Source: an uncultured Gammaproteobacteria bacterium
GTDB taxonomy: Bacteria; Pseudomonadota; Gammaproteobacteria; Pseudomonadales; Litorivicinaceae
Assembly: GCA_913062835.1 (NCBI GenBank)
Contig: CAJXXD010000006.1
Coordinates: 1-13,911 of the forward strand
Direction: 5' to 3'
DNA: 13,911 nucleotides
A program made the position numbers and the translations under genes. The notes under the pieces were generated by a model, which worked only from the letters and a program-made list of their open reading frames with translations, did no database searches and was not told where the DNA came from. Shown here one piece after another: positions 1-13,911 of the stretch; position 1 is the stretch's first letter; the number at the start of each line of letters is the position of its first letter.

Positions 1-49
1 ATCCGAATCGTGGTGGGATGGATGTCAGTGAAATGACGAGTTGCGTCAC
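1..49 (-). CDS. Partial glycosyltransferase gene (first 16 codons only)
   Basis: Reading the minus strand from a GTG at 49-47 gives MTQLVISLTSIPPRFG, and the gene then runs out of the window. The GTG overlaps the TGA stop of the upstream glycosyltransferase (stop 48-46) as GTGA, the same coupling style seen at other junctions here. A purine-rich GGGGGA lies about 8-9 nt upstream of the GTG. The opening ISLTSIPPRF is a recognisable N-terminus of a group of bacterial glycosyltransferases from LPS and capsule clusters, which fits its place as the third gene of a leftward glycosyltransferase operon. Only the start is visible, so the family is a motif-level guess. That a gene starts here is well supported by the overlap, the ribosome-binding site and the peptide. 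Confidence 0.6.
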   Translation of the reverse strand, partial: MTQLVISLTSIPPRFG

Positions 50-795
50 GAGAGCGATCCCCCATGGCTTTGCCAATAGTCTTGCATCCAGCTGACGAGC
101 TTATAGCGTCTATCGCTTTCAGGACGGATTAATTCAATGGGTCTCGGGCGGCCATGAAAAGCGATAATCTTTGCCGACTCAGGCGGAGTTTTTGCATCGA
201 AAAACCAGCTGACTATCGGGGGTCGCCGAAGATGATATTTGTAACTTCGAATCCACGATTGTGGCCAATACTGAATGTTTTCGAGTTCCCCATGCACATA
301 GTCTTGTTCGATTTTGTATTTCTCGACAACAGTTGCGCGATTTTTTGAAATGCGAGCCACGAGGTCGGGCAAGGCGCCCAAGTTAAAACTGAATACGCCG
401 GTGCCAGTTCTCGGCCCGCCTGGTCTACGTCCCCAAGGCTGGGAGTCGATCGCGACAAGCTCGCCATCGTAGTCAAACATGTCATCGAGTGATCCACAGA
501 TGACGGAGTCGAGATCAATAAATAGCGCTCGACCCGACAGACCGTAAAGTGACGCAGAAAAGACGCTGATTTTGGGCCACGCACCGTGATAGTAGTCCGC
601 GGGCTCAAGACCAATATCGGGTATTGGATAATGCTCGATATCCTCAGCAAGGCCCTGCGGATCATCGGTCAAACAAACGAACCGAAAAGATCCGCGCATG
701 AAGGCTCTGCATGCAGAAAACAACACATTGACGTACTCAGCAGAGTACAGAGTGCCCCATTTCATGCACAAAATTGTACGCTCTGGTTCGTTCAT
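46..795 (-). CDS. GT-A fold (GT8-like) glycosyltransferase
   Basis: This is a 249-aa predicted cytoplasmic glycosyltransferase. Near residues 91-98 it carries LFIDLDSV, a hydrophobic strand followed by Asp94-x-Asp96. That is the metal and nucleotide-sugar binding DxD of GT-A enzymes. It is followed by GSLDDMF, as in GT8-like proteins that add sugars to LPS or capsule. A VFSFNLG stretch near residue 134 and an EQDYVHGEL segment further on are also typical of the group. I chose the ATG at 795 rather than an in-frame ATG 19 codons upstream, because 795 makes an ATGA overlap with the stop of the GT25 gene. No signal peptide or membrane segment is seen. Sugar and acceptor are unknown. The surrounding GT25 and following glycosyltransferase genes suggest outer-core LPS or another surface oligosaccharide. 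Confidence 0.75.
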   Translation of the reverse strand: MNEPERTILCMKWGTLYSAEYVNVLFSACRAFMRGSFRFVCLTDDPQGLAEDIEHYPIPDIGLEPADYYHGAWPKISVFSASLYGLSGRALFIDLDSVICGSLDDMFDYDGELVAIDSQPWGRRPGGPRTGTGVFSFNLGALPDLVARISKNRATVVEKYKIEQDYVHGELENIQYWPQSWIRSYKYHLRRPPIVSWFFDAKTPPESAKIIAFHGRPRPIELIRPESDRRYKLVSWMQDYWQSHGGSLS

Positions 796-1592
796 CGTAG
801 ACCTTGAAGTGGCAAGTTGTTGGTTTTGGGTATGAGTCGTCTGGTCACGCAAAGATAAATCAGCCGACCGATTAAATTTTCGAGCTGCTCAGCGTATTTC
901 GTCCACCGCTTTCGGAGTGGCCAACGCTTCACTGCGCCGAATTGGTCACCGGTAATGGTACTGCGTCCATGATCCTCGGGGTGCGCTGGAAAGGGTTCCA
1001 ACCCAAAGTGACGGAGATCATAGCGATGCACCTGTTCCAACTCTCGATCAATCGGCGCTTTGATGGGAAGTAATAACGGCAGTAGTCTCATTGCCGTTTC
1101 TCGATTTAGCAAGTAAGCGCCAAAACCGGTTGCTGCGCCTAAATATGCATTGAGCTGATAGGGCCCGATGCGACCTTGGCAAATTGGTTGTTTCGCGCGA
1201 ATTTTAGCCAGCTTTAACATATCCCAGTGAGATGACGCGCGCAGTGCGACATGAAGCGCATCGATGAAGTCTGCGTGTAACACCATGTCGTCCTCCAGTA
1301 CCAGGAGGAATTCGGCCGAGGAGTCAAGAAACCGTTGCCAAGCGCCGAGGTGTGCGTGGTAGCAACCGATTTCACCAGGCAGCACCGCGCGTCCAACATG
1401 CCGCTGAAATGCTGATATATCGACACTGGGCGCCAGTCGGTCCCATTCCGCTTTGCCATCGACTGCCTCATAGAAGGCGTAATGAAGCCCAGTTGTTTCA
1501 AGCTGCATTTCCATCCGCTGTCGTCTTTCTTTTGATTGCGGCAGATTGATGACGAAGGTCATGAGCATGGGAAATTGATCGGCTTGTTGCAT
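792..1592 (-). CDS. Glycosyltransferase family 25 (LPS biosynthesis type)
   Basis: This 266-aa protein has the full GT25 signature. It opens with VINLPQSKERR (residues 14-24), then PGEIGCYHAH (72-81), then VLEDDM (98-103) holding the acidic metal-binding motif. A C-terminal segment has RYDLRHFGLEPFPAHPEDHGRSTI-type residues, written here in short form as FGLEPFPA and GRSTI. GT25 enzymes are cytoplasmic, often galactosyltransferases of LPS or lipooligosaccharide outer core. The exact sugar cannot be read from sequence. The gene is first of a leftward operon, and its TGA overlaps the next ATG (ATGA). Starts at Met9 or Met11 are possible, since many family members begin just before the VINLP strand. 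The upstream ATG has a weak GAG about 7 nt before it and is kept. The gene is divergent from neuB across a 220-bp spacer. Confidence 0.85.
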   Translation of the reverse strand: MQQADQFPMLMTFVINLPQSKERRQRMEMQLETTGLHYAFYEAVDGKAEWDRLAPSVDISAFQRHVGRAVLPGEIGCYHAHLGAWQRFLDSSAEFLLVLEDDMVLHADFIDALHVALRASSHWDMLKLAKIRAKQPICQGRIGPYQLNAYLGAATGFGAYLLNRETAMRLLPLLLPIKAPIDRELEQVHRYDLRHFGLEPFPAHPEDHGRSTITGDQFGAVKRWPLRKRWTKYAEQLENLIGRLIYLCVTRRLIPKTNNLPLQGLR

Positions 1593-1661
1593 TCAGGTCT
1601 CGTATCAGTATTCGGGAGGGGCACTTCAGCTCGTTCGGTTGCACAGTTTGATTGACTGGGT

Positions 1662-1686
1662 CCGGATGCACAACTGTTGTTGCCGG
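1662..1686. repeat. Imperfect inverted repeat / possible operator
   Basis: The arms CCG (1662-1664), GCA (1668-1670) and CAAC (1671-1674) pair with GTTG (1676-1679), TGC (1681-1683) and CGG (1684-1686) around a central T, with small bulges. The core ACAAC-T-GTTGT (1670-1680) is a perfect dyad. No T-tract follows, so it is not a standard terminator. It overlaps the candidate -35 box of neuB, which would suit an operator. Confidence 0.3.
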
Positions 1687-1706
1687 ATCCATAAAGATTT
1701 CATATT
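1677..1706 (+). promoter_or_regulatory. Weak candidate sigma-70 promoter for neuB
   Basis: TTGTTG at 1677-1682 and CATATT at 1701-1706 are separated by 18 nt. Each matches four of six consensus positions. Transcription would begin about 100 nt upstream of the neuB ATG. The match is weak and rests on eye inspection only. Confidence 0.22.
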
Positions 1707-1812
1707 ACTGATTGCGATGATGCTGCGGTTGTTTAACCATACTGGAGTAACCTATCAAGGCAACTCTTGAGGGAACTTTGGAGTGACGCATTCCATGGAG
1801 AGAGACTGATTT

Positions 1813-2838
1813 ATGCAAATTGCGCATCGCTTGATCGGCCCTGATCACCCACCCTTGGTTGTCGCCGAGATTGGGATCAACCACGGTGGAAGTCTTGAGG
1901 TCGCCAAAGATATGGTGCGAGCAGCTGCACAGTCAGGATGCGAGATGGTCAAACACCAGACGCACATCCTAGATGACGAAATGACCGAGGAGGCGAAATC
2001 CATTGTTCCGGGCAATGCGGACACCTCAATCTGGTCGATCATGGAATCCTGTGCATTGAGTCTGGATGAGGAGACTGAGCTTAAACGATACACAGAGTCC
2101 CTTGGCGTCATTTGGATTTCGACTCCCTTCTCTCGGGCTGCGTTGAAGTTCTTAGAAACTCTGGATGTACCCGCCTACAAGATCGGTTCTGGTGAGGCAG
2201 ACAATATCCCACTCATCCGAATGATTGCAGCCACTGGAAAGCCCGTAATCATGTCGACCGGGATGCACACCATCGACAGTTTAAAGCCTGGTGTGGACGC
2301 CTTGCGTAGCGCACCCTCCTTTGCACTCTTAGAGTGTACCAACCTCTACCCATCACCACCTGAGCATGTCTCTTTGCAGGGGATTCAGCAGCTGCGTGAT
2401 ACGTTTCCAGACGCTGTGATTGGGTTTTCCGATCATTCGATGGGTCCGCACATGGCCTTGGCTGCCGTCGCACTTGGGGCGAATATTATCGAGCGACATT
2501 TCACCGACACACGGTATCGGGTAGGTCCGGATATTTCATGTTCGATGGATCCGGCTGAATTGCGATTTTTGATTGACCGAAGTCGCGAGATTTGGGAAGC
2601 CACTCGTCGTCCGAAACATCGAACAGCACCAGAAGAAACGACCTATGCATTTGCCAGAGCCAGTTTAATTGCCGATCGAGACTTGGTTGCGGGGCAGGTG
2701 ATCGGTGATGGGGATATTTGGGCAAAACGTCCTGGGAATGGTGAAATCGCGGCCGTGTCGTACGATGCCATCCTCGGTCGAACGTTAAAGCACGACGTTC
2801 CAAAAAATCGACAGTTATCGTGGACAGACTTTGTGTGA
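1813..2838 (+). CDS. neuB: Nonulosonic (sialic) acid synthase, NeuB family
   Basis: This 341-aa enzyme would condense phosphoenolpyruvate with ManNAc (or a 2,4-diacetamido hexose) to form Neu5Ac or an analogue in the cytoplasm. Residues 14-24 read PLVVAEIGINH, the start of the TIM barrel. Next come KHQTH (47-51), STPFSR (103-108), KIGSGEADN (123-131) and STGM (148-151). FSDHS (205-209) and ERHFTD (227-232) supply the two metal-binding histidines, His208 and His229. A C-terminal SAF (antifreeze-like) domain from about residue 283 contains KRPGNG, whose Arg306 matches the substrate-contacting arginine of NmeNeuB. Length and motifs are full. KHQTH...PGNA and GPDISCSMD resemble Campylobacter NeuB1 more than the E. 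coli form, as recalled from memory. Neu5Ac and legionaminic acid synthases cannot be separated safely here. The gene converges on the GT30-neuC unit, and the stops are 4 nt apart. Confidence 0.88.
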   Translation: MQIAHRLIGPDHPPLVVAEIGINHGGSLEVAKDMVRAAAQSGCEMVKHQTHILDDEMTEEAKSIVPGNADTSIWSIMESCALSLDEETELKRYTESLGVIWISTPFSRAALKFLETLDVPAYKIGSGEADNIPLIRMIAATGKPVIMSTGMHTIDSLKPGVDALRSAPSFALLECTNLYPSPPEHVSLQGIQQLRDTFPDAVIGFSDHSMGPHMALAAVALGANIIERHFTDTRYRVGPDISCSMDPAELRFLIDRSREIWEATRRPKHRTAPEETTYAFARASLIADRDLVAGQVIGDGDIWAKRPGNGEIAAVSYDAILGRTLKHDVPKNRQLSWTDFV

Positions 2839-2842
2839 GTGC

Positions 2843-4153
2843 TTAAAGATTCTGATGGTCGAGGATACTTCGAATCACCGATATAGTCCGTTCGGTTGCG
2901 CCAGTATGCGCACTGAAGAATTCACGTATCTTTTGTGGGTCCGGTGCTGGTTCACTTAAGGCGTTAACCAATGCGGCACTTGTGTTGTCAACGACTCGGA
3001 GCACACCGGCAGCTTTCGCTTCAACGGCTGGAAATTCGATCGTATGTAAAAATGGGCCCGTGTAAACGGGTTTCCCCAAGGCGATTGCCTCGGAAATATT
3101 GTGCGCGCCCTTGGGTGCGAAGCTGCCGCCAACCACGACTTGATCAGCCATGGCGAGATACCCATACATCTCCCCCATGGAGTCGCCAAGCAATACATCG
3201 ATGGGTTCGAGCAAGGGTGTTTGCGGATGGAAAGTGCTGTCAAAGAGTTCGCTTCGACGTTTGACCACAAGGCCGCGTGCGATGAGTTGTTGGTAGACCA
3301 AACCAAATCGCTCTGGTGCACGTGGAACATAAATGATCAGTGGCTGCGGGCGCCCAGATTCCGTCGCCTCATGTCGCAGGGCGACGATGGCGTCGATGCA
3401 TAACGTGTCCTCTCCCTCAATGACACTCACCATCGCGATCGTGGGTCGATTGCGAGCGAAAGCGGCGCGATTATCGATACCTTGGTTAATCAATGCGGCA
3501 GGTAAAGGCTGGTCAAAGCGTAACTCGCCGGTTACTGCGATACGGGCGATACCGGTCGATTGAAAACGGGCTGCGTGGGTCGCCGATTTAACGCATGCCG
3601 TGTGTACATGGCCAATCGCACGAAAACGCCAACCAGAAGTTCGGCAGTCACGTTGATAACTGCGCTCCAGATATTGAGCATTAACAAGGACCAACGGGAT
3701 ATTGTGTCGTGCGGCCTGAATGATTTGTTCGGGCCAGATCTCGATTTCAGAGACCAAAATGGCTTTGGGCTGGATCCGCCGGATCGCGCGTACAACAGAT
3801 CCGACTGTATCCAGTGGTGCCCATGAAACCGAGACGGTGCCGTTGTCGATTGCTTCTGCATAGGTCTCTGCGATGGCACGTCGTGCCACCGGCGTGATAC
3901 ACGCGAGATGAATCGTTTCACCCAACTCGAGCAGTCGGTTGATGAGGGTCAAGCAAGCGCGGAACTCGCCGATACTGACAACATGAAGCCAAATAGGGCG
4001 TCTGTGATGTGGCACAATCACGCCAAAGCGCTCTGCGAGGTGCTGTCGGTACATTCGGTCCTTGCGGCTGCGCCACAGGAAATAGCCAATCGCCAGAGGG
4101 GTGGCACACAGTAAGGCGATTCGATACAGAATCCGATCAGCCCATTCACGCAT
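2843..4153 (-). CDS. GT30 Kdo-transferase-like (WaaA family) glycosyltransferase, copy 2
   Basis: This 436-aa protein has the WaaA/KdtA architecture. An N-terminal membrane anchor (about residues 8-27) is followed by basic YRQHLAERFG. HVVSIGE (57-63) holds the catalytic-site Glu63. SEIEIWPE (135-142) stands where the usual ETELWPN lies. GDSMGE (323-328) and GGSFAPKGAHNISE (342-355) form the CMP-sugar site. Family members move Kdo from CMP-Kdo to lipid A at the inner face of the inner membrane. Departures from the usual motifs are VPRAPERF instead of VPRHPER (His to Ala at 279), VIEGED instead of THEGEE, and GAHNISE instead of GGHNPLE. I chose the ATG at 4153, which overlaps the previous gene by 8 nt (ATGCGTGA) and gives the usual family length. 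An upstream ATG would bury 36 codons in that gene. It could be the true waaA or, given its place between neuC and neuB, a nonulosonate transferase. Confidence 0.78.
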   Translation of the reverse strand: MREWADRILYRIALLCATPLAIGYFLWRSRKDRMYRQHLAERFGVIVPHHRRPIWLHVVSIGEFRACLTLINRLLELGETIHLACITPVARRAIAETYAEAIDNGTVSVSWAPLDTVGSVVRAIRRIQPKAILVSEIEIWPEQIIQAARHNIPLVLVNAQYLERSYQRDCRTSGWRFRAIGHVHTACVKSATHAARFQSTGIARIAVTGELRFDQPLPAALINQGIDNRAAFARNRPTIAMVSVIEGEDTLCIDAIVALRHEATESGRPQPLIIYVPRAPERFGLVYQQLIARGLVVKRRSELFDSTFHPQTPLLEPIDVLLGDSMGEMYGYLAMADQVVVGGSFAPKGAHNISEAIALGKPVYTGPFLHTIEFPAVEAKAAGVLRVVDNTSAALVNALSEPAPDPQKIREFFSAHTGATERTISVIRSILDHQNL

Positions 4154-5441
4154 GTCCGTGATTCCCAAGACCTGCTTCACCGATGATCGACTGTGCGAGC
4201 CCATCCGCCTCCGTGAGTTGAGACAAGCGGGCGCGCTCTGCTCGTGTCGCTTGCGCAGCACCTGATGTCGAGAGGGTCCTAATCACCGACTGAGCATCGG
4301 TCACGACTGTGACCGCGTCATACGCTGTGAGAAGCGCATAGTCTGCCGTAAAGTTGCTGGTCTGCTGACCGGCCATGATCGGACACTCAAGCGCAACTGC
4401 CTCCCACGGGTTGTGCCCGCCAACTGCTGGGTCTTGGGTGCCGCCGATCAATGCCCATCGTGCGCTTCGAAGCGCCTGTCCAAGCCGTCCATACTGATCA
4501 ACGATAATAATGTCAGCGGGTGAGAGATTGCGTGCGTATGAACACTGACTGATCAGGAGGCTCTTCAAACCGGCTTCATGGATGGCGGATTGGATGCTGA
4601 TGAGTCGACTTAAATCCCTCGGAACCAACACCAGTTGTAATGGACTGCCCTGATCAACGCATGCGCGTTGAGCTGCAAGCGCCATGGTCTCATCGGCAGC
4701 GTGAGAAGACACCACCACCCAGTAAGAGAGGCTTGAGAGACAATCCCACCATGGCTCTCCTGCGGGCGACTGGGTCGGAAGCGGCGGCGCGATACGTTTC
4801 AAAGAAGGGGTTTGTCGGACTTGATCTGCGGATGCGCCGAGCGTGATGAGTCGCGAGATCATCGTCATGTCGGTCGTATGGATCTCGCGAAAGGATCTAA
4901 GAAGATCTCGGTACAGACCCGACAGCCGAAGTCGGCCTTTGAGTGAGCGTTCTGAGATGCGGGCATTGACCCAAAATGTGGGAATTTTCGACTGTGCAAG
5001 CGTGATCAGCGTGCGTGGCCAAAGATCCTGATCACACACAATATAAGCGGCAGGTTGCCAATGGGCTAAAAATCGGTTGAGACTTTGCGGAATATCGAGT
5101 GGGCAGAATTGGTGTGTGACCTGCGGTTCATGAAACGTTGTGGCGATGTGCATCGAGCTTTTCGCGCTGGACGTGATCAGAACCTGGATTTCAGGCTGAA
5201 GGCGGACGACACATTGGACCAGACCTCGTAGGGCCGCGAGTTCGCCGATACCGACGCCATGAAACCAAATGACGAGTCGGTTGCGCCGTGGTGCCAGATC
5301 GAGTCCGAGTTTTTCACGCCAGCGCGCCGGATCCTCACGATGTTGTGCAGCTCGAGCTCGAATCAACCAAGGTGCGATTGCACTGATGACCCAGGTTAGG
5401 CCCAGATAACAGCGTGTCTGCCAATGCAGTTGTTCAGTCAT
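4146..5441 (-). CDS. Divergent GT30 (WaaA-like) glycosyltransferase, copy 1
   Basis: This 431-aa protein is clearly GT30-like. It has a hydrophobic N-terminal anchor (about residues 11-27), then PARWREKLG (38-46), FHGVGIGE (60-67) with the conserved GE, and GGHNPWE (341-347) near the C-terminus. Several usual Kdo-transferase positions are changed. VCDQDLWPR (135-143) replaces ETELWPN, VPRDLSR (273-279) replaces VPRHPER, SSHAADE (245-251) replaces THEGEE, and DQYGRLGQAL (315-324) replaces the GDxxGEL segment. The fold is probably kept while donor or acceptor contacts have shifted. It starts with an ATG inside the end of neuC (8-nt ATGACTGA overlap) and ends inside the start of the second GT30 gene. 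Its likely role is transfer of an alpha-keto acid sugar. A nonulosonate made by NeuC/NeuB is a reasonable but unproven donor. Confidence 0.72.
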   Translation of the reverse strand: MTEQLHWQTRCYLGLTWVISAIAPWLIRARAAQHREDPARWREKLGLDLAPRRNRLVIWFHGVGIGELAALRGLVQCVVRLQPEIQVLITSSAKSSMHIATTFHEPQVTHQFCPLDIPQSLNRFLAHWQPAAYIVCDQDLWPRTLITLAQSKIPTFWVNARISERSLKGRLRLSGLYRDLLRSFREIHTTDMTMISRLITLGASADQVRQTPSLKRIAPPLPTQSPAGEPWWDCLSSLSYWVVVSSHAADETMALAAQRACVDQGSPLQLVLVPRDLSRLISIQSAIHEAGLKSLLISQCSYARNLSPADIIIVDQYGRLGQALRSARWALIGGTQDPAVGGHNPWEAVALECPIMAGQQTSNFTADYALLTAYDAVTVVTDAQSVIRTLSTSGAAQATRAERARLSQLTEADGLAQSIIGEAGLGNHGHA

Positions 5442-6546
5442 GAAATATCTTTTGCAGTGGTTGGTCCCAAAAGCTCGGGTTCTGAATTACTTCGACAAAT
5501 CGACGCGCTGATTCACCATGGCCAAACTGGGTCTCAGGTGTCCGTCGCCGTCCCCACCAAGTCGTGAGAAATGCATTGATCGCTTCGTGGTCGAAGGGAG
5601 AGACCGTCAGGGGCCAGTCTGTTTCAGAGCGCGCTGTCTGCCTTGACCCGATATCAAGGGAGGGTAAGCCAACAAAGGGTGCTTCGCGGACGCCAGCACT
5701 TGAGTTTCCAATCAAACATGCCGCATGTTTCATCATTTCTGAAAAATGAGCGAAGCGCATTGAGGGGAGTACCCGAAAGCGCGCGGGAAGTGCTTTGATT
5801 CGATTCCGTATCGCTTCAGAGCCTGGATCGTTATTTGGTGCAATCACTACAAAGCTCCGCTGGCTCGCCTCTAACGTTGAAAACAGCGCATCAGCCTGTT
5901 GGGCCATCTCATCAGCCTCAGATGTCACCGGATGAAAGATGCAAATGCCAAACACCTCATCAGTGAGGGCATAGCGTTCTCGAACGTCACTGATGTGGAC
6001 TCCCGATGCTGTGGCATGGACGTCCAGTTCGGGCGATCCGATCACATGGATTGAGGCAGCAGACTCACCCAGTGCACGTACGCGGCGAGCAGCGCCTTCA
6101 GAACTGACAAAGTGATGCAGCGCCAATTTTGTATTGCAGTGCCGAAACAGCTCGTCGATGGTGCCAGAAATCTCTCCACCTTCAATATGAGCGAGCGGAA
6201 TATAGTTTGTAGCCGCCACGAGAGAGCAGGCAATGGCTTCCACACGATCGCCATGGACAACAATCAGATCCGGATGGGTCTCCAAGACATAATCAGAGAA
6301 GCCCATAATGGTCTTCGCCAGTATCTGGTCTTGTGAGTCACTGGGTCGCTGGTTCAGAAACTCATAGACTTCAATTCCAGGTAGCCGGTGCACCTCAATT
6401 TTAGTTAATCCATATTCATAGAGCATGTGCATACCGGTGACGAAGAACGTGACTTCAAATCCGGCGCCATGGGCGGCGCGGGCTAACACCTCGAGTTTGC
6501 CAAAGTCAGCGCGTGTACCAGTTACGAATAAGAGGGATTTTGACAA
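5434..6546 (-). CDS. neuC: UDP-GlcNAc 2-epimerase, hydrolysing (NeuC family)
   Basis: NeuC converts UDP-GlcNAc to ManNAc plus UDP, the first step of sialic acid synthesis. Related LegG/NeuC forms use UDP-diNAc-bacillosamine. This 370-aa protein has all family blocks: FVTGTRADFGK (7-17), VVHGDRVEA (96-104), HIEGGEISGTIDE (120-132), FHPVTSE (204-210) and NSSAGVREAP (281-290) followed by IGSRQ. The longest open frame starts at 6609, but I chose the TTG at 6546-6544. It has GAGGAAG 8 nt upstream and gives the N-terminus MSKSLLFVTGTRAD, the usual family start, whereas the 21-residue extension has no family counterpart. The stop overlaps the next gene's ATG by 8 nt. The gene leads a three-gene minus-strand unit with the two GT30-like genes. 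It is divergent from the arabinose operon. Confidence 0.87.
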   Translation of the reverse strand: MSKSLLFVTGTRADFGKLEVLARAAHGAGFEVTFFVTGMHMLYEYGLTKIEVHRLPGIEVYEFLNQRPSDSQDQILAKTIMGFSDYVLETHPDLIVVHGDRVEAIACSLVAATNYIPLAHIEGGEISGTIDELFRHCNTKLALHHFVSSEGAARRVRALGESAASIHVIGSPELDVHATASGVHISDVRERYALTDEVFGICIFHPVTSEADEMAQQADALFSTLEASQRSFVVIAPNNDPGSEAIRNRIKALPARFRVLPSMRFAHFSEMMKHAACLIGNSSAGVREAPFVGLPSLDIGSRQTARSETDWPLTVSPFDHEAINAFLTTWWGRRRTPETQFGHGESARRFVEVIQNPSFWDQPLQKIFHD

Positions 6547-6554
6547 GGTGTAGG

Positions 6555-6561
6555 CTTCCTC
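6555..6561 (-). promoter_or_regulatory. Shine-Dalgarno that decides the neuC start
   Basis: On the minus strand GAGGAAG is followed by 8 nt and then TTG (6546-6544). This is the only good ribosome-binding site near the conserved N-terminus of NeuC. It supports a TTG start over the longer frame. Confidence 0.6.
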
Positions 6562-6650
6562 AATTGTCGGTTCAAACTCAAGTGGCGACCGATCTGTTCG
6601 GTCCACCAAATCGTTTGCAGATTACCATGATTCGATGCATCCAAGCGGAC

Positions 6651-6664
6651 TCCATTGCAATGGA
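6651..6664. repeat. Perfect 14-bp palindrome, candidate operator
   Basis: TCCATTGCAATGGA is identical to its own reverse complement. It lies roughly midway between the divergent neuC and HAD-UbiA starts, with the smaller palindrome GATGCATC 10 bp to its left. Its position suits a dimeric repressor or activator controlling both operons. No known regulator box was recognised. Confidence 0.4.
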
Positions 6665-6717
6665 TCGACAGCATGGTCGTCGCCGATTTGAATATCCGAT
6701 ATGCTGTGAGCCTCGTA

Positions 6718-8187
6718 ATGTTATCTAGCTATGGAATCCGATTGACCAACGTAATTTCCACCCGTCCTCACGTGCTTGTTGTGGATCTGGATGGCACACT
6801 GACTCCCTCCAACTCCCTCGTTGAATTGGTCCTGCAGCTGGCTCGTCGAGATCCGGTGAAGTTGGTCTCGCTTGTCTGGGTGCTGTTGACTTCAGGCCGT
6901 TTGGCATTCAAGTGCGCGGTTTCAGATTGCATTGAGGCTCAGGTTGATCATTGGCCATGGAACCCGAAGGTGCTTGATAAAATTGAAGCTGCTCGATTGC
7001 GAGCGGACACGATTGTGCTGATGACGGCATCAGATCAGCGCGTGGCCTCGCGGGTCGCGGATTACCTGGGGGGATTCGATGCTGTGTTTGGCTCGACACC
7101 CGAGTGCAATCTCAAAGGGATTGAAAAAGCCCGTCTCATTGCTACCACGTATGCAGATGCCAAAGTGACCTATATCGGCGATTCCAACGCGGATCGTCCT
7201 GTGTGGGAAGCGGTTGATACAGCGATTGGTGTGGGCATTGATCCGCGACAGGTCGGGAACATCGCGGGCCAAAGTGAGGAGCTACCAAAAGTACGAGGAC
7301 AGCGCTCGGTCGTCTGGTCTATCCTCAAGGCGCTCCGGCCGCACCAGTGGGTGAAGAATGTATTGCTGTTCGTGCCCTTGGTTTTGGCGCAAGTGACTGC
7401 TCCAAGTGTCTACCTGTTGGTGTGCCTTGGGTGGATTGCCTTCTCATTCGTCGCATCGGCAGTGTATCTGTTCAATGACCTCATGGATCTTGCAGATGAC
7501 CGTGCTCACCCCCGTAAGCGAAATCGGCCGCTTGCCTCGGGATACATGCCCATTGAGTGGGGAGTCATCGGCGTGGTCGCGTTAGTCACCATCGGACTTG
7601 GCTTGGCCTGGATACTGGATGCGTTTTTTGCATTGATGCTGCTTGGTTATCTGGGTTTAACCACCCTTTATTCGTTGAAGCTGAAACGCGTCGCTTGGGT
7701 TGATGTGGTAACGCTTTCAGGTCTCTATACCTGGCGGTTACTATCGGGTGCCGTATTGGCCGGTGTTTTGATTTCGCCCTGGTTATTTGTGTTTTCCTTG
7801 ATGTGTTTTCTGTCCCTGGCTGGGATGAAACGGATCACTGAATTATTGGATCGGATTGAGCGTGGGTCAGATGCGACCTATGGACGCGATTATGCTGTTG
7901 AAGATTGGCGGTCCATGGCGTGGTTGAGCGGTATTGCACTTTTGAGTGCCTTGGTGACCTTTGTGCTCTATCTACAAGTGCCGACAACAGCGGATCTTTA
8001 TCCCAATATTCACGCGCTTTGGTGGGTGGTGCCTGTGCTGTCGCTCTGGCTTGGCCGGATGTTCTGGTCAACGCTGAGTGGGCGGATGCATGATGACCCG
8101 ATCGTTTATGCAGCCATGGATCCTCTCAGTTGGGTATCTGGGCTGTGCGTCATGGTGCTGATGTTGCGAGCGAGCGGCTTGTGGTGA
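6718..8187 (+). CDS. HAD phosphatase-UbiA fusion, polyprenyl-phosphate phosphoribosyltransferase type
   Basis: This 489-aa fusion has two parts. Residues 1-200 are a HAD hydrolase with DLDGT (23-27, nucleophile Asp23), TASD (103-106) and GDSNAD (154-159). Residues from about 203 are a UbiA membrane prenyltransferase with LRPHQWVKN (206-214), the Mg-binding NDLMDLADD followed by RAHPRKR (253-268), and a second conserved stretch YSLKLKRVAWVDVV, with about eight membrane segments. The UbiA part resembles mycobacterial Rv3806c, which joins PRPP to decaprenyl phosphate. The fused HAD domain would remove the 5-phosphate. NoeC of Azorhizobium is a related protein for arabinosylation, as I recall. 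I preferred the ATG at 6718 because the longest frame begins at a TTG (6655) without a ribosome-binding site. The ATG at 6673 is possible. The stop overlaps gtrA as GTGA. Confidence 0.8.
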   Translation: MLSSYGIRLTNVISTRPHVLVVDLDGTLTPSNSLVELVLQLARRDPVKLVSLVWVLLTSGRLAFKCAVSDCIEAQVDHWPWNPKVLDKIEAARLRADTIVLMTASDQRVASRVADYLGGFDAVFGSTPECNLKGIEKARLIATTYADAKVTYIGDSNADRPVWEAVDTAIGVGIDPRQVGNIAGQSEELPKVRGQRSVVWSILKALRPHQWVKNVLLFVPLVLAQVTAPSVYLLVCLGWIAFSFVASAVYLFNDLMDLADDRAHPRKRNRPLASGYMPIEWGVIGVVALVTIGLGLAWILDAFFALMLLGYLGLTTLYSLKLKRVAWVDVVTLSGLYTWRLLSGAVLAGVLISPWLFVFSLMCFLSLAGMKRITELLDRIERGSDATYGRDYAVEDWRSMAWLSGIALLSALVTFVLYLQVPTTADLYPNIHALWWVVPVLSLWLGRMFWSTLSGRMHDDPIVYAAMDPLSWVSGLCVMVLMLRASGLW

Positions 8188-8591
8188 CATTGTGTGTGAA
8201 GTATTTCGGTTTCGCGGTGCTTGCGATCATGGCTAACCTTCTGGTGCAGCGTGCCGTGTTTGCAACTTGGCAAGCGGGTGAGACCTTCGTCGTTGCAATT
8301 GCGCTCGGGACGGTTGTCGGCTTGGTGGTGAAATACTGGCTGGACGCACGATGGATTTTTTACTCAGATCGGCCGCGTTCAGATCTCGGTCAATTCGGTC
8401 GGTACACTATCACAGGTGTGGTCACGACTTTTCTGTTTTGGGGCTTTGAGTGGGTGGGTTGGTACCTATCAGGGGATCATCAGATTCGCGAACTTGCAGC
8501 GATCATTGGGCTGTCTCTAGGGTATTTATTAAAGTACCAATTGGATAAGCGATTCGTGTTTGCCGGGATGACCAATGGAGAGTCTGGATGA
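8184..8591 (+). CDS. GtrA family membrane protein
   Basis: This protein of about 135 aa has four predicted membrane segments. It opens VKYFGFAVLAIMANLLVQRAVF in the usual GtrA manner and has two KYWLDARWIF / KYQLDKRFVF repeats at the cytoplasmic ends of helices 2 and 4, the hallmark of the family. GtrA proteins are implicated in moving or presenting polyprenyl-phosphate sugars. Mycobacterial Rv3789, next to dprE1/dprE2, is of this type. Here it would help bring polyprenyl-phosphate-arabinose to the periplasmic side. I chose the GTG at 8184, which overlaps the upstream TGA as GTGA. GTG 8181 is equally possible. The longer TTG start at 8130 would add 18 non-conserved residues inside the previous gene. 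The stop overlaps the next ATG (ATGA). Confidence 0.85.
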   Translation: MTLCVKYFGFAVLAIMANLLVQRAVFATWQAGETFVVAIALGTVVGLVVKYWLDARWIFYSDRPRSDLGQFGRYTITGVVTTFLFWGFEWVGWYLSGDHQIRELAAIIGLSLGYLLKYQLDKRFVFAGMTNGESG

Positions 8592-9889
8592 AGCGGCCAT
8601 TATCCGGATGGGGTTGCTCACAAGTTATGGATTGCGACGTCCGTGATTGGGATGCAGAGCATGTGTCGTTATGGGCCCAACATGGCGGGATCGCTCGCGG
8701 CCTCGGTCGCGCCTATGGGGATAGCGCCTACAATCAGCAGCTCACTGTTGAGACCGGCTCACTCAATCGGGTTGTGCAGTTTGATTCGGAGTCTGGGGTG
8801 CTTGTTGCGGAGGGTGGTTTGTCGCTTTACGCAATGCTTCGTACGATTGTGCCTCACGGTTGGTTTGTGCCCGTGACCCCAGGCACTCAGTTTGTCACCT
8901 TGGGTGGCATGATTGCAGCCGATGTGCACGGTAAGAACCATCATCATCAGGGGTCCTTTGCGCACTGTGTGGATTGGATCGAGATGATGGATCCGACTGG
9001 TCAGCGGCACCGCGTCAGTCGAGAGCAGGATCCAGCCTGGTTTAATTGGACCTGCGGTGGCATGGGTCTGACCGGCGTCATTCTGTACGCGCAGATTCGG
9101 TTGTTGCCGATCCATTCGCCTTGGATTGAACAAACCACTGTTGTGACACCCGATTTGGAAGCGACCATGCATTGTTTCGAATCGAAAGTCGATGCGCCGT
9201 ATTCCGTGGCCTGGCTTGATGCCAGCGCGCGTGGTTCGAAGCTTGGTCGCTCAGTGGTCTTTTTGGGAGCGCATCAGAACGAGTCTGAATTACCGCCCGG
9301 TGAATGGATCGCCCCTCGCCGATCATGCCCGGAGGTTCCTCGTTTGCCATTTGGCGTAGTCAATCGCTGGACAACGGATCTATTCAACACTGTTTACTAC
9401 CGAAAGCAGTCCAATAATCAAAAGCCTGTGCACTGGCAAACGTATTTCTACCCACTTGATGGCTTGAATCACTGGAACCGTGTTTATGGTCCGAAGGGGT
9501 TTGCCCAATTTCAAACCGTCATACCGATTGATTCGGCTCCTGCATGCATTCCTTTGTTGCTCAAAATAGTGCGAATACATGGGTTTGCATCGCCTGTCAG
9601 CGTGTTAAAAAAAATGGGTGCAGAGGCATCCGGTATCTCGTTTCCAATGCCCGGTTACACATTGACTGTGGATTTACCGAATCGGTCCGGATTGCGCAAA
9701 TTGATGTCGCAACTCATCGATTGTGCAATTGATCACGGTGGGCGGTTTTATCTTGCCAAGGATTTGCATTTAACTGCCGAGCAGTGCTTCCGTGCCGATT
9801 CCCGCATGGATGCGTTTCGTGCGTTTCGTGAAGCACGGGGCATGCGCTCCGTCTTCGTATCAGAACAATCTAAACGGTTAGGACTGTAG
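8588..9889 (+). CDS. dprE1: DprE1-like FAD-dependent polyprenylphosphoryl-ribose 2-oxidase
   Basis: DprE1 oxidises the 2-hydroxyl of polyprenyl-phosphoryl-ribose as the first half of its epimerisation to arabinose. This 433-aa protein fits the whole family. GLGRAYGD (38-45) and VTPGTQFVTLGGMIA (96-110) form the FAD site, VHGKNHH (113-119) is the flavin/substrate loop, and GGMGLTG lies at 157-163. Then come YFYPLD (286-291), YGPKGFAQFQ (300-309), FPMPGY (352-357) and GGRFYLAKD (384-392) with the substrate-site Lys391. By motif alignment Thr360 sits where Mycobacterium tuberculosis DprE1 has Cys387, the residue attacked by benzothiazinones. The ATG overlaps the gtrA stop (ATGA), with GGAG about 7 nt upstream. 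It ends directly before the dprE2 ATG (TAG-ATG). The identification is strong. The actual sugar is inferred from the neighbours. Confidence 0.87.
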   Translation: MKRPLSGWGCSQVMDCDVRDWDAEHVSLWAQHGGIARGLGRAYGDSAYNQQLTVETGSLNRVVQFDSESGVLVAEGGLSLYAMLRTIVPHGWFVPVTPGTQFVTLGGMIAADVHGKNHHHQGSFAHCVDWIEMMDPTGQRHRVSREQDPAWFNWTCGGMGLTGVILYAQIRLLPIHSPWIEQTTVVTPDLEATMHCFESKVDAPYSVAWLDASARGSKLGRSVVFLGAHQNESELPPGEWIAPRRSCPEVPRLPFGVVNRWTTDLFNTVYYRKQSNNQKPVHWQTYFYPLDGLNHWNRVYGPKGFAQFQTVIPIDSAPACIPLLLKIVRIHGFASPVSVLKKMGAEASGISFPMPGYTLTVDLPNRSGLRKLMSQLIDCAIDHGGRFYLAKDLHLTAEQCFRADSRMDAFRAFREARGMRSVFVSEQSKRLGL

Positions 9890-10624
9890 ATGATGCGACC
9901 TGCAGTGATGATTCTTGGATCGGGCTCAGATTTGGGTGCTGAGCTTGCGAGGCAATATGCCGAGCGCGAACATCCTGTCTATTTGTTGGGTCGTGATGCT
10001 GAGCGTCTCCAACATTTGGAAAATGCACTTGGGGGGTGTCGATCGCCCCAAGTACGTGGCTATGTGTGTGACCTCCTTGATGATGAGCGCTTTGAGTCGG
10101 TATTGGCTGACTTGGACCCTTTCCCAGAGATTGTCATTGTCACGGCGGGCACGATGACTGGATTGGAGGCACCGACTGCCGAAGCGGTTCGGGAACTCAT
10201 GCGCATCAACGCAGAAGCGCCGGCGATTCGATTAGAGCAGATGATGACAGAGTTTGAGCAGCGAGGAATTCAGGGCGTGTTGGTTGGTGTCAGCTCGCTT
10301 GCAGGTGAGCGTGGCCGTCGTTCAAACTATCCTTACGGTGCAGCGAAAGCAGCGTTTACGACATATTTGTCTGGACTTCGTCATCGGATGTTTAGAAGCG
10401 GGATCCATGTGATGACAGTGCTTCCTGGTTTTGTGCAAACCAAAATGCTGGAGGGGATGCAAACACCAGCGCTGCTGACGATTGGTCCGGAAGAAATGGC
10501 GGCACGCATTCGGCTGGGCATCGAGCAGCGTAGGGATGTGGTCTACTCGGGCGCGATCTGGCGTCTCATTCAGTGGGTTTTGATTCTGCTCCCAGAGTGG
10601 CTCTTTAAGCGAACAAACCTATGA
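9890..10624 (+). CDS. dprE2: DprE2-like short-chain reductase (ribose to arabinose epimerisation)
   Basis: This 244-aa short-chain dehydrogenase would reduce the 2-keto intermediate made by the upstream oxidase, using NAD(P)H, to give polyprenyl-phosphoryl-arabinose. Its cofactor site is ILGSGSDLGAELA (8-20). Asn-like turn residues VTAGTM follow at 84-89. The catalytic set is Ser135/Ser136, Tyr149 and Lys153 in YGAAK, and LPGFVQTKM lies at 178-186. The C-terminus, about residues 223-240, is a hydrophobic helix ending in basic residues. This is usual for DprE2 relatives and would keep the enzyme at the membrane with its lipid substrate. It begins immediately after the dprE1 stop and overlaps the next gene as ATGA. 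A second ATG follows directly at 9893. SDR sequence alone does not fix the substrate, so the role rests on gene order. Confidence 0.82.
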   Translation: MMRPAVMILGSGSDLGAELARQYAEREHPVYLLGRDAERLQHLENALGGCRSPQVRGYVCDLLDDERFESVLADLDPFPEIVIVTAGTMTGLEAPTAEAVRELMRINAEAPAIRLEQMMTEFEQRGIQGVLVGVSSLAGERGRRSNYPYGAAKAAFTTYLSGLRHRMFRSGIHVMTVLPGFVQTKMLEGMQTPALLTIGPEEMAARIRLGIEQRRDVVYSGAIWRLIQWVLILLPEWLFKRTNL

Positions 10625-12105
10625 CGGCACAGATGACCGCATCGCGATATACGCTACTTGTGGGCGTTGTGATCGCAAAAATTCTGTTAGCAGCGTTGAT
10701 GCCATTGACCGGTGACGAAGCTTATTTTGTCTTATGGGGACAGCACCCGGCGCTCGGTTATTACGACCATCCGCCATTGGCTGGTTGGTGGTTGGCTCTG
10801 ATATTGCCCCTGAGTGATCATGTGTTGGCGGTCCGTTTTGCCGCGATTGCTGTGTCACTTGTTCCGGCCATTTTAGTATTTCAAGCGCTTCGGGCGTCGC
10901 CTGAGGCACAGTGGCCAGCCACACTGGTTGCGCTCTTTTCGCCGCTGTTTTTTATCAACATTTTTTACACCACTGATACTTGGTTGATTTGTTTTGGCAT
11001 CTTGGCCATGTGGAGTTACGTGCGGGCGACACAGGATGAGAGCGCACTTTTTTATCTTCTTTGTGGGCTATGCTTGGGGCTCGCCTTTTTTTCGAAGTAT
11101 CTGGCAGTGTTAATTGGTCTGGGCATGGTCGTCGAGCAGATCGTTTCTGGCCGCCGATTTGTGCGTAATTTGCTGTTGATTCTGCTCGCTGTGTTTCCGT
11201 TTGTTGCACTGAACCTCTGGTGGAATGTGACCCACTGTGGTTACAACCTAATGTTTAACCTGGTGAATCGACAGTCGGATGCGAGCTGGGACCTTACGGG
11301 CCCCCTGACCTATGCGTTGATGTTGCTCTATGTGCTGACTCCATGGTTAGTCCTTGGGGTGTTGCGTCAGCGGCCCTCAATTGCGTCCATAGATCGATCC
11401 GCCGATGTATGGCGATGGCTTTGGATCATCCCAGGCTTGGTACTGTTGCTCGTCTCGTTGATCAAACCCATCGGTCTGCATTGGGTGATTCCGATTATGT
11501 TTGCGTTTTTGATGGCGATACGCTGGTCTTCTTGGTCATTGCGGTCGATACGATGGGCAATGTTCGCAACCGTCAGCTTTGGGATCATTCACTATGCGAT
11601 CTTGATGGGGGTGGCGGTTTTTCCGGTTGAGCGCTGGATCCAGCCAGATCGCGCAGATCGCGTCGGTTTTTATCGATACGGAGATGAAATCGGGATCGAT
11701 TTAAATGCGCGTTATGATGCGTCTTGGATCATAGCGTCACCGAGTTATTCGCGAGCGGCCACAATGAGTTATCACACCAAACGGGATGTGCCTGTGTTTG
11801 GTCAAGGGTCGCGTTATGGTCGGCAGAGTGATTTGCTGTTTGATCTGACACGAGCTCCTGAAAGTAAGGTGGCTATTGTGGGTTCGACAGCGGCAGAACT
11901 CGAGTCATTTGAGAAATTCTTCAGTCAGGCGGAGTTGTATAACCTGACCTCAGGTGGAAATGTTTCATACTGGGTATTGGAAGGAGAGGGTCTCCGCGCT
12001 GATGTTTATGCGACCACTGTGATAGCGGAGATTGTCGAAAGCTTTTACCAAATACCGTCATGGATGCCGGTGAAAGAGTGTGAATATACTAATCGCGCGC
12101 GATAA
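10621..12105 (+). CDS. GT-C membrane glycosyltransferase, PMT/ArnT-like (GT39/GT83)
   Basis: This 494-aa integral membrane protein starts with a membrane helix followed by GDEAYF (31-36) and GYYDHPP (46-52). This periplasmic acidic loop is found in PMT_2/ArnT-like enzymes that use polyprenyl-phosphate sugars. About ten further hydrophobic segments follow to about residue 335. A soluble C-terminal domain of about 150 residues comes next, with SYSRAATMSYHTKRDVPVF and a later RYGRQSDLLFDL segment, like periplasmic domains of GT39-type proteins. As last gene of the operon it is the likely user of polyprenyl-phosphate-arabinose, comparable in role to TfpW of Pseudomonas aeruginosa, which puts D-arabinofuranose on pilin. 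The acceptor here is unknown. The start overlaps the dprE2 stop (ATGA). After the stop I see no strong terminator, only a short GATAA/TTATC dyad at 12102-12117. Confidence 0.8.
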   Translation: MTAQMTASRYTLLVGVVIAKILLAALMPLTGDEAYFVLWGQHPALGYYDHPPLAGWWLALILPLSDHVLAVRFAAIAVSLVPAILVFQALRASPEAQWPATLVALFSPLFFINIFYTTDTWLICFGILAMWSYVRATQDESALFYLLCGLCLGLAFFSKYLAVLIGLGMVVEQIVSGRRFVRNLLLILLAVFPFVALNLWWNVTHCGYNLMFNLVNRQSDASWDLTGPLTYALMLLYVLTPWLVLGVLRQRPSIASIDRSADVWRWLWIIPGLVLLLVSLIKPIGLHWVIPIMFAFLMAIRWSSWSLRSIRWAMFATVSFGIIHYAILMGVAVFPVERWIQPDRADRVGFYRYGDEIGIDLNARYDASWIIASPSYSRAATMSYHTKRDVPVFGQGSRYGRQSDLLFDLTRAPESKVAIVGSTAAELESFEKFFSQAELYNLTSGGNVSYWVLEGEGLRADVYATTVIAEIVESFYQIPSWMPVKECEYTNRAR

Positions 12106-12716: not shown

Positions 12717-12735
12717 AAGTCAAGTGAACTAAGTT
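12713..12735. repeat. Tandem AACTAAGT palindromic elements, candidate antitoxin operator
   Basis: AACTAAGT occurs at 12713-12720 and again at 12727-12734, 14 bp apart. Each contains the dyad ACT-A-AGT, and the second extends to the perfect AACT-A-AGTT. The first overlaps the candidate -10 box and the second lies between it and the ribosome-binding site GGGAG (12736-12740). Phd-family antitoxins bind paired palindromes over their own promoter, so this is the likely autoregulatory site. Confidence 0.45.
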
Positions 12736-12745
12736 GGGAGTGGGT

Positions 12746-12991
12746 ATGGAATCATTTAATATGCATGAAGCAAAGACGCGCCTATCACAATTAGTGGCTC
12801 GCGCTCAGCAAGGGGAAGGTTTCATCATCGCCAAGGCTGGAAAACCTCTGGTGCGTGTAACAGCCATTGACTCGCCGGAGCCAAGTCAAAAAAAGCGGAT
12901 CGGATTTTTGGCAGGACGGTGTGTCGTTCCTGATAACTTCGATCGGTTAGGGGAGCACGAGATTGCAGAAATGTTTGGAAGTTCAACGTGA
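12746..12991 (+). CDS. Phd/YefM family antitoxin
   Basis: This 81-aa antitoxin starts MESFNMHEAKTRLSQLV, the usual DNA-binding N-terminus of the Phd/YefM fold. IIAKAGKPLVRVTAI (residues 27-41) then completes the dimer domain. The C-terminal tail from about residue 51, RIGFLAGRCVVPDNFDRLG, is the segment that wraps and blocks a PIN toxin in this subfamily. I chose the ATG at 12746 because GGGAG ends 5 nt upstream. The longer TTG frame (12734) starts inside the candidate operator. The stop overlaps the toxin GTG as GTGA, the usual coupled antitoxin-first order. Autoregulation through the ACTAAGT repeats just upstream is likely. Confidence 0.87.
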   Translation: MESFNMHEAKTRLSQLVARAQQGEGFIIAKAGKPLVRVTAIDSPEPSQKKRIGFLAGRCVVPDNFDRLGEHEIAEMFGSST

Positions 12992-13374
12992 ATCTTCTGA
13001 TCGATACTCATCTATTGCTCTGGGTTGCAGGCGGTTCTGCAAAGTTGTCAAAAGAAGCGCTCCAAATGATCAACGATGATTCAAATCGGCTGTATTTCAG
13101 TGCAGTCAGTATTTTGGAGGTGGTGATCAAAAATGCGTTGCAACGAGAAGACTTTTACGTGGATCCAAATTTGTTCAAAAGAGGGCTCGTGGATAACGGC
13201 TACGAAGAGCTGGTGATCACCTCTGCTCATAGTTTGGGGGTGGCTCATTTGCCTCCCATTCATAAAGATCCCTTCGATAGACTGCTTTTGGCACAAGCTG
13301 AGCTTGAGGGTTTTCTTCTCCTAACATCCGATGCTGTAGTTGCTCAATACCCAGGACCGGTGCAGCTCGTTTGA
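12988..13374 (+). CDS. PIN-domain toxin (VapC-like, Sll0205 type)
   Basis: This 128-aa PIN ribonuclease has the four acidic active-site residues expected of the fold: Asp6 in LLIDTHLLLW, Glu44 in SILEVVIK, Asp97 in the HKDPFDRLLLAQA block (92-104), and Asp115 in LLTSDAVV. The H-x-DPFDR-LLAQA motif marks the subgroup that pairs with Phd-type antitoxins. It would cleave RNA, often tRNA or rRNA, when its antitoxin is degraded. The start is a GTG at 12988 inside the antitoxin stop, so translation depends on the antitoxin being translated first. All catalytic residues are present, so the toxin looks intact. Confidence 0.88.
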   Translation: MNLLIDTHLLLWVAGGSAKLSKEALQMINDDSNRLYFSAVSILEVVIKNALQREDFYVDPNLFKRGLVDNGYEELVITSAHSLGVAHLPPIHKDPFDRLLLAQAELEGFLLLTSDAVVAQYPGPVQLV

Positions 13375-13548: not shown

Positions 13549-13911
13549 CTACACCCAGTTCTCGACGCGAAGACCCTCAACCCGTCCAAACTCTCGTATA
13601 TTGTTCGTGACCAGTGTCAGTCCGTGACTTCGTGCATGCGCTGCGATATGCAGATCATTAATACCAATGATCATACCTTTCCGCTCGAGATCGGCACGGA
13701 TGTTTCCATAGTGCCCAGCTGAGTCTTGGCCGTAGTCGAAAATGGCGACACGCGACGTAAAATCATCGATTGCAGCCATGTTTTTATCAGGGCTCGTACT
13801 TTTTTCGACCCCATGATAGAGCTCGGCAAGCGTTATCGTGCTGATCGAGAGCTGCGCAGCTCGACGATTGAACACGTCTAACACGTGAACCGGTCGACGT
13901 TTGATCACGTA
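13549..13911 (-). CDS. VapC-type PIN toxin, N-terminus beyond the window
   Basis: The frame stays open to the right edge of the window, where the last codon read is Tyr before VIKRRPVHVL. Intact relatives begin about 14 residues earlier with a MLDTN-type strand carrying the first catalytic Asp, so the gene is cut by the window and not by mutation. The visible 120 codons hold LAELYHGVEKS with the catalytic Glu, and GINDLHIAAHARSHGLTLVTNNIREF with the two remaining acidic positions, ending RVENWV. This is the VapC4-5/FitB-like PIN group, whose partner is normally a VapB antitoxin encoded just upstream, here outside the window. It is convergent with the Phd-PIN pair across 174 bp, in which I see no gene and no clear terminator. 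Confidence 0.87.
   Translation of the reverse strand, partial: YVIKRRPVHVLDVFNRRAAQLSISTITLAELYHGVEKSTSPDKNMAAIDDFTSRVAIFDYGQDSAGHYGNIRADLERKGMIIGINDLHIAAHARSHGLTLVTNNIREFGRVEGLRVENWV

Follow-up and report, generated by a model that had tools for sequence, protein, structure and literature searches.

The 13,911-nucleotide stretch of DNA analysed here (hereafter the window) is the entire contig C6 of a 1.34-Mb, 68% complete assembly from an uncultured gammaproteobacterium of the Litorivicinaceae, and it carries two tandem genes of glycosyltransferase family 30 (GT30), designated GT30-A and GT30-B, embedded between neuC and neuB. To our knowledge, the GT30 members characterised so far use cytidine monophosphate (CMP)-activated 3-deoxy-D-manno-oct-2-ulosonic acid (Kdo), and the family is generally treated as a Kdo family. 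From the comparisons described below, we lean towards the reading that GT30-B would transfer a nonulosonate, probably neuraminate, from its CMP donor to Kdo-lipid A, with GT30-A as a Kdo transferase. B is read as the recruited enzyme because it forms its own clade, tracks NeuC across genomes, adjoins NeuC where A is absent, and bears invariant changes at Kdo-linked positions, and A as the Kdo transferase because it falls with the WaaA of Rhodobacteraceae and retains K162, His184 and the GGHN motif. A preliminary description of the window had suggested recruitment of one paralogue, or of both, for transfer of the NeuC/NeuB product; the suggestion finds support for B and is unlikely for the WaaA-like A. 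The region spanning 46-6609 is probably a nonulosonate and lipopolysaccharide (LPS) inner-core cluster that the gammaproteobacterium acquired.

GT30-B (2843..4153, minus strand, 436 aa) and GT30-A (4146..5441, minus strand, 431 aa) have PF04413 as their sole Pfam match, at 127.7 and 145.1 bits, both above the cut-off of 23.9. Next to them on the same strand lies the gene for NeuC (5434..6609), a hydrolysing UDP-N-acetylglucosamine (UDP-GlcNAc) 2-epimerase whose start codon is uncertain and which passes its NCBIfam cut-off (TIGR03568, 330.7 vs 235.9 bits). The 8-nt overlaps reported earlier between neuC and the first GT30 gene and between the two GT30 genes are exact (5434-5441 and 4146-4153), and the best start of GT30-B, judged from its translation and the junction sequence, is the ATG at 4153. 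Also as first described, the unit faces neuB: GT30-B converges on the gene for a NeuB-family nonulosonate synthase (1813..2838, plus strand; PF03102, 233.6 bits), with 4 nt between them. The best NCBIfam match of this NeuB, TIGR03569 NeuB_NnaB at 340.6 bits, lies under the cut-off of 399.65, and the exact nonulosonate is thus uncertain, though N-acetylneuraminate synthase is closest. Scores against the NCBIfam WaaA equivalogs are likewise low for GT30-A (195.8 vs 438), GT30-B (284.8 vs 524) and the genome's own waaA product (277.4 vs 438, also under). No match to the sialyltransferase families of Pfam was found among the ten window proteins scanned, which bears out the initial remark that no sialyltransferase of the GT42, GT52 or GT80 type was visible. 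Chance can be excluded for the grouping of NeuB, NeuC, A and B, since the same grouping recurs in other genomes.

The two paralogues have separate ancestries in both of the trees that we built, a FastTree phylogeny of 116 GT30 proteins (including the 30 A, 32 B and 47 WaaA proteins used in the residue counts below) and an IQ-TREE phylogeny of 47 of the 116. In these trees, gammaproteobacterial WaaA denotes the proteins of same-order genomes together with the window genome's own, and alphaproteobacterial WaaA those of phylum genomes outside the window's class together with one from a Micavibrio. With FastTree, the 30 A proteins form a clade (0.988) in the alphaproteobacterial part, and this clade joins three of six Rhodobacteraceae WaaA and a weak C group at 0.998; with IQ-TREE, A groups with three of the six Rhodobacteraceae WaaA at 100, while support for A itself is only 29. 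The 32 B proteins form their own clade on the gammaproteobacterial side (1.0, stem 0.78), and in the IQ-TREE phylogeny B is monophyletic (100) and groups with gammaproteobacterial WaaA (100); two of nine alphaproteobacterial WaaA fall weakly (55 and 69) on the other side of that tree. No other single sequence comes as near to the B clade as the WaaA of the window's genome itself (0.886 and 93); the branches are long, and this nearness may be an artefact. A placement test against housekeeping alphaproteobacterial WaaA put A inside that group and B not. The GT30 tree that the preliminary description had proposed as a check thus sets A with Rhodobacteraceae WaaA and B in a separate clade (1.0/100). 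An origin of the A/B pair by local duplication is ruled out by both trees. The window's GT30-B is nested within the Rhodobacteraceae B clade (larger tree, FastTree), and its GT30-A sits on a long branch (1.45, FastTree). Each of the six Rhodobacteraceae genomes counted also has a weak extra GT30-like protein (L077-L082); among the residues listed for this group at the column of the catalytic Glu31, none is Glu.

The distribution of these genes was surveyed in 246 genomes, at least 95% complete and nearly all one per genus, of the Shimia family, which we take to be, and call here, the Rhodobacteraceae; NCBI taxonomy places Yoonia in the Paracoccaceae. With E-value thresholds of up to 1e-60 for B, 1e-50 for NeuC and 1e-20 for A-like proteins, B occurs in 40 genomes, NeuC in 37 and both in 34 (Fisher p 4.5e-32, a value that ignores the kinship of the genomes and so overstates their independence). 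Such clusters are present in about one in seven of the Rhodobacteraceae genomes sampled, and 206 of the 246 are without B at the threshold used. A-like genes are found in 237 of the 246, so having A is not specific to NeuC. When neighbourhood conservation was scored, as had been proposed at the outset, NeuC lay within 10 kb of B in 31 of the 37 genomes. The usual gap between NeuC and B is about 1.27 kb, the length of A, and it is 40 and 69 bp where A is absent. In two genomes, G610 and G257, B adjoins NeuC and A is absent from the cluster. The order in G257 is NeuB-NeuC-B-GFO-type oxidoreductase-NeuA-short-chain dehydrogenase/reductase (SDR), flanked by PALP and CcmF family genes, and B is the sole glycosyltransferase of the cluster; the A of G610 sits where its contig stops, and the 8.8 kb retrieved there showed no recognisable neu gene. 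G670 keeps A with B, and its NeuC is on a different contig.

Among 23 B loci read, NeuC is present in 23, NeuB in 20 and a NeuA-type gene in 21; these loci were chosen for a nearby NeuC, which makes the 23/23 a result of selection, and the unbiased figure is the 246-genome count. Twenty loci were chosen among the B genes whose contig also carries NeuC, and 13 further stretches were mostly exceptions; L138 does hold A, and the NeuA of L064 is a CTP_transf_3 match. The cluster of Shimia isoporae (G122, identified by its A and B, which show full identity to the named proteins P0030 and P0298 across the aligned length) runs NeuB, NeuC, A, B, then an oxidoreductase, an SDR and NeuA, and that of G153 is similar. 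In G075, which belongs to the window's class and is given as 100% complete, the cluster comprises NeuC, NeuB, B and A, and no GT30 gene besides A and B was found; the GT30 genes of G122 and G153 are A, B and one weak third. Since G122, G153 and G075 all have KdsA and KdsB-type genes, one of the A/B pair is most likely WaaA there. More widely, all 9 genomes tested have KdsA, and the 8 that are complete also give a strong CTP_transf_3 match, assigned to the KdsB type by its score and location; on these grounds replacement of Kdo altogether by a nonulosonate was rejected. Outside the family, in a 398-genome sample of the phylum, the B search passes 1e-58 in six genomes, including G380; the G380 protein (36% identity to B) carries the WaaA signature GNLKFD and GGQN and was rejected as a B and not counted.

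The residue signatures of A and B were compared in the numbering of Aquifex WaaA, following PMC6286764 (in excerpt) and alignments to 2xci. B retains E31, E98, W102, R212, N273 and E276, a likeness to WaaA/KdtA that, with PF04413, suggests a CMP-ulosonate type of donor; the catalytic base E31 and the CMP-site residues R212, N273 and E276 are present in both window proteins. B differs from WaaA/KdtA in its separate clade, its link to neu genes, and the changes K162 to R, H184 to V/I and GGHN to G(A/S)HN. The K162 column has K in 47/47 WaaA and 30/30 A and R in 32/32 B; the H184 column has H in 47/47 WaaA and 30/30 A, and V (25), I (6) or T (1) in B; and the second G of GGHN is G in 46/47 WaaA and 30/30 A and is A or S in 32/32 B. 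The window's GT30-B has K162 to R, H184 to I and GGHN to GAHN, and the R recurs, with the His again missing, in four B proteins outside the tree set (G486, G452, G603 and G666). A role in positioning Kdo, possibly through the carboxylate of the sugar, has been proposed for K162 (PMC6286764, in excerpt), so that this position would be a natural site for a change of donor. The window's GT30-A keeps K162, H184 and GGHN and has E98 to D and S28 to G. The S28 column is G in 30/30 A and S in 47/47 WaaA and 32/32 B, and among four A proteins outside the tree set it is G in three and S in one (G603). S28 is a proposed contact of the lipid A 1-phosphate, and, as a speculation, its change to G in A would fit the lipid A of Loktanella rosea, in which galacturonic acid (GalA) replaces the 1-phosphate. 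The contrast between A and B residues amounts to a natural experiment on donor change in a Kdo transferase.

A chemical precedent for the product predicted of B exists in L. rosea, now Yoonia rosea of the order Rhodobacterales in current taxonomy. Its LPS core consists of three ulosonic acids, alpha-Neu-(2->8)[alpha-Kdo-(2->4)]-alpha-Kdo, on a lipid A with GalA in place of the 1-phosphate (PMC3210612, in excerpt). This all-ulosonate core with neuraminic acid on Kdo is the product that would be expected of a Kdo transferase plus the activity predicted for B, and it is described in the text available as a chemical structure, with no transferase seen assigned. WaaA and one Kdo-directed neuraminyltransferase would account for the core, and B would fit the latter role; seven proteins named Yoonia are among the B matches listed, and all match B best. 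Sialic acid is also listed in the LPS of Rhodobacter capsulatus (PMC9631793, in excerpt).

In the pathway that we propose, NeuC would convert UDP-GlcNAc to N-acetylmannosamine (ManNAc) and NeuB would then form a neuraminic-type nonulosonate, both functions being those of the respective families, and a CMP synthetase, found in most of the related clusters read and not on the window contig, would activate the sugar. GT30-A, to judge by phylogeny and residues, would act as WaaA and transfer Kdo to lipid A. GT30-B would apply the same GT-B, base-assisted inverting chemistry to the same kind of acceptor, Kdo-lipid A, with a CMP-nonulosonate as donor, and the predicted product, neuraminic acid linked to Kdo, would resemble the L. 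rosea core. We see an even chance that, in more general terms, the B clade represents a GT30 branch that switched from CMP-Kdo to other CMP-ulosonates (neuraminate where NeuABC genes are neighbours, possibly a sugar like 8-amino-Kdo (Kdo8N) where the neighbours are oxidase/aminotransferase genes) to build an all-ulosonate inner core on Kdo-lipid A, and that it comprises the missing enzymes of the L. rosea type.

The enzyme belongs to a known kind, GT30; judged by the open literature searched, the variant is a new one: among the open-licence papers listed, no title or abstract opening assigned a GT30 enzyme to neuraminate. The nearest functional parallel is KdoT of Acinetobacter baumannii, which resembles B as a dedicated second enzyme beside WaaA that adds an extra ulosonate onto Kdo2-lipid IVA, but differs in being annotated as ELM1-like with no GT family and in using CMP-Kdo, whereas B is a GT30 protein with a predicted nonulosonate donor (PMC12856342, in excerpt). 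The sialyltransferases of GT29, GT42, GT52 and GT80 would share the CMP-neuraminate donor predicted for B, although Pfam places neither A nor B in any of these families. The gonococcal sialyltransferase Lst accepts both CMP-Neu5Ac (N-acetylneuraminic acid as the sugar) and CMP-Kdo (PMC8092323, in excerpt). Among the matches listed, B proteins with visible names are called Kdo transferase or are named by domain. If B does transfer neuraminate, many marine Alphaproteobacteria are misannotated in this respect, and neuraminic acid on Kdo, an LPS structure without an assigned enzyme, would gain one; the clusters would then predict marine bacteria with sialic-acid-type sugars on the LPS core.

The window genome contains a third GT30 gene, on contig C148, between argH and the gene for a FAD-dependent oxidoreductase (names given by eye). 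The related genome G005 shows the first part of a like GT30 gene next to the same oxidoreductase and genes of the WaaF, WaaC, HldE and GmhA types (LPS genes recognised by eye), and the C148 gene is therefore taken as the housekeeping waaA; its product matches gammaproteobacterial records best among the eight matches listed. The window's genome and G122 fall in one phylum but in different classes, which, with these matches, is the ground for taking the host as a gammaproteobacterium. A search for another waaA, which the preliminary description had recommended, was thus successful, and neither gene of the pair is the genome's only waaA. The same-genus genome G005 also encodes a very divergent GT30 protein (L026:8633-9985, branch length 2.47) next to two acyltransferase-like genes recognised by eye. 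No match above 105.6 bits to the GT30-A query (self score 966.7) was found in 21 same-genus genomes, so the cluster is rare in the genus and was probably acquired. Besides P0002 (60% identity to A) and P0122 (69-70% to B), the closest named relatives are mostly Rhodobacteraceae. The possibility that the contig is a Rhodobacteraceae sequence binned in error is not favoured, as the composition of the contig fits the host genome: the tetranucleotide correlation of the left half of the window is 0.873 with contigs of its own genome (12.7 kb used) vs at most 0.769 with Rhodobacteraceae loci. A plasmid search with GT30-A returned 27 records, all below 60% identity and 8 of the 27 annotated waaA, and a search of genome contigs returned one WaaA-like match, in a Micavibrio. 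On contig C87, the window genome carries genes for PseB, PseC, a NeuB/PseI-family protein and a PseF-like protein in a row (L028:1070-5036), a separate nonulosonate pathway.

A number of observations weigh against the assignment of neuraminate transfer to B. In the host itself, no NeuA was seen on the 13911-bp contig (genome 68% complete), although this contig ends beside the cluster and more genes may therefore lie beyond; the search for neuA envisaged in the preliminary description yielded only one CTP_transf_3 match, the sole CMP-sugar synthetase seen in the genome, and it belongs to the Pse-type operon. Across the Rhodobacteraceae, NeuC lies within 10 kb of A in at least 30 of 37 genomes, nearly as often as of B (counts of A near NeuC or B being lower bounds, since 40 A places were used and weaker matches left out). 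Of the 40 genomes with B, 6 lack NeuC (G495, G579, G588, G590, G614 and G655), and of the 37 with NeuC, 3 lack B (G465, G532 and G628, the last with NeuB, NeuC and NeuA in another locus type). In G486 and G452, NeuC stays with A, and B is far away, adjoining genes for a GMC oxidoreductase, a CMP-sugar synthetase and a DegT aminotransferase, from which it follows that the donor of B may vary or may not be neuraminate. In G666 (L179), a 2.2-Mb, 96% complete genome, NeuA, NeuB, NeuC and B are present with no A-like match, and unless a WaaA was missed B could carry out the Kdo step there; in eight further genomes of the 246, none of them with B, no A-like match passes that threshold either, so a WaaA may indeed have been overlooked in G666. 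K162 to R is a conservative change and no proof of a donor switch, and the link of B to Y. rosea is one of genus name, through the proteins named Yoonia. Finally, another labelled glycosyltransferase is encoded in 16 of the 23 B loci, with none in the other 7, and GT29 sialyltransferase genes are present in 6 of the 23 and in 9 of 46 genomes searched, all 9 with B and NeuC. GT29-type genes inside Rhodobacteraceae neu clusters are exemplified by L141:12178-12951 (PF00777, 48.4 bits, the one scanned) and its homologues in L146, L149, L152, L154 and L155.

Some of these observations would be accommodated if A and B were both Kdo transferases, A adding the first Kdo and B a second or side-chain Kdo, with another core glycosyltransferase adding the nonulosonate and the neu link reflecting a shared LPS-core locus; we regard this as possible but rather doubtful. 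The donor of the characterised GT30 members, of which WaaA is the subject of PMC6286764 (in excerpt), agrees with it, as do the retention of the CMP-site and base residues in B, the six genomes in which B lacks NeuC, the GT29, GT25, RgpF or unassigned glycosyltransferase genes that make up the 16 of 23 loci, and G666 with its B and no A-like match. The same proposal must contend with the tracking of NeuC by B, with the G257 cluster, whose only glycosyltransferase is B, and with the fact that no other glycosyltransferase type is present in more than 9 of the 23 loci (unlabelled open reading frames being only partly scanned), 7 of which have none labelled. Moreover, the B-specific changes fall on Kdo-linked positions, E. 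coli WaaA alone adds both Kdo residues (PMC6286764, in excerpt), and B is missing, at the threshold used, from 206 of the 246 genomes.

In an improbable alternative, the sugar that B transfers would be an altered Kdo (Kdo8N, for example, or some other modified ulosonate) in place of neuraminate, the clade being a general alternative-ulosonate transferase. It draws on the neighbours of B in G486 and G452, a GMC oxidoreductase, CMP-sugar synthetase and DegT aminotransferase set that fits Kdo8N synthesis as in Shewanella; these B proteins are divergent, however (43-45% identity), and come from 2 of 40 genomes, and the genes of the 23 loci, picked though they were for B near NeuC, point to a nine-carbon sugar. 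The two divergent B genes and these neighbours lie at L172:8901-13529 and L174:8279-12949; L174 was scanned for all three neighbours (CTP_transf_3, GMC and DegT), the cytidylyltransferase of L172 is a phmmer label only, and the loci possibly represent biosynthesis of a sugar resembling 8-amino-Kdo, together with a dedicated transferase. That horizontal transfer brought in the pair in the window as a mere passenger, decaying or neutral, seems to us quite unlikely. In favour of this view, the host carries a waaA of its own on C148, the contig is without NeuA, the window's A has its long branch and E98 to D, and the 21 same-genus genomes have no A match above 105.6 bits; yet all frames are open and the 8-nt overlaps are kept, relatives at 60% (A, P0002) and 70% (B, P0122) elsewhere argue for maintenance, and the contig ends beside the cluster.

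The cluster in the window is probably wider than the neuC-neuB interval and includes two further genes, since homologues of both are found in some related loci: a GT25-family LPS glycosyltransferase gene (792..1592, minus strand; PF01755, 86.4 bits), with a homologue in 3 of 23 B loci, and a gene for a glycosyltransferase-like protein with no Pfam match (46..852, minus strand; phrog_1962 glycosyltransferase, E 5.1e-12), with a homologue in 9 of 23. Immediately adjacent to the neu cluster, on the plus strand at 6655-12105, are genes for a HAD-UbiA prenyltransferase (NF006088, 490.6 vs 351 bits), a GtrA-type protein and a PMT_2 glycosyltransferase, as well as DprE1-like (365.6 vs 500) and DprE2-like (106.5 vs 250) genes. 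We take this set to be a polyprenylphosphoryl-pentose pathway resembling mycobacterial arabinan synthesis. Farther along lie a PhdYefM-like/PIN toxin-antitoxin pair on the plus strand (12734-13374; PhdYefM-like at 28.7 vs 29.8 bits, just below cut-off) and, near the contig end, an additional PIN-domain gene on the minus strand (13549-13908).

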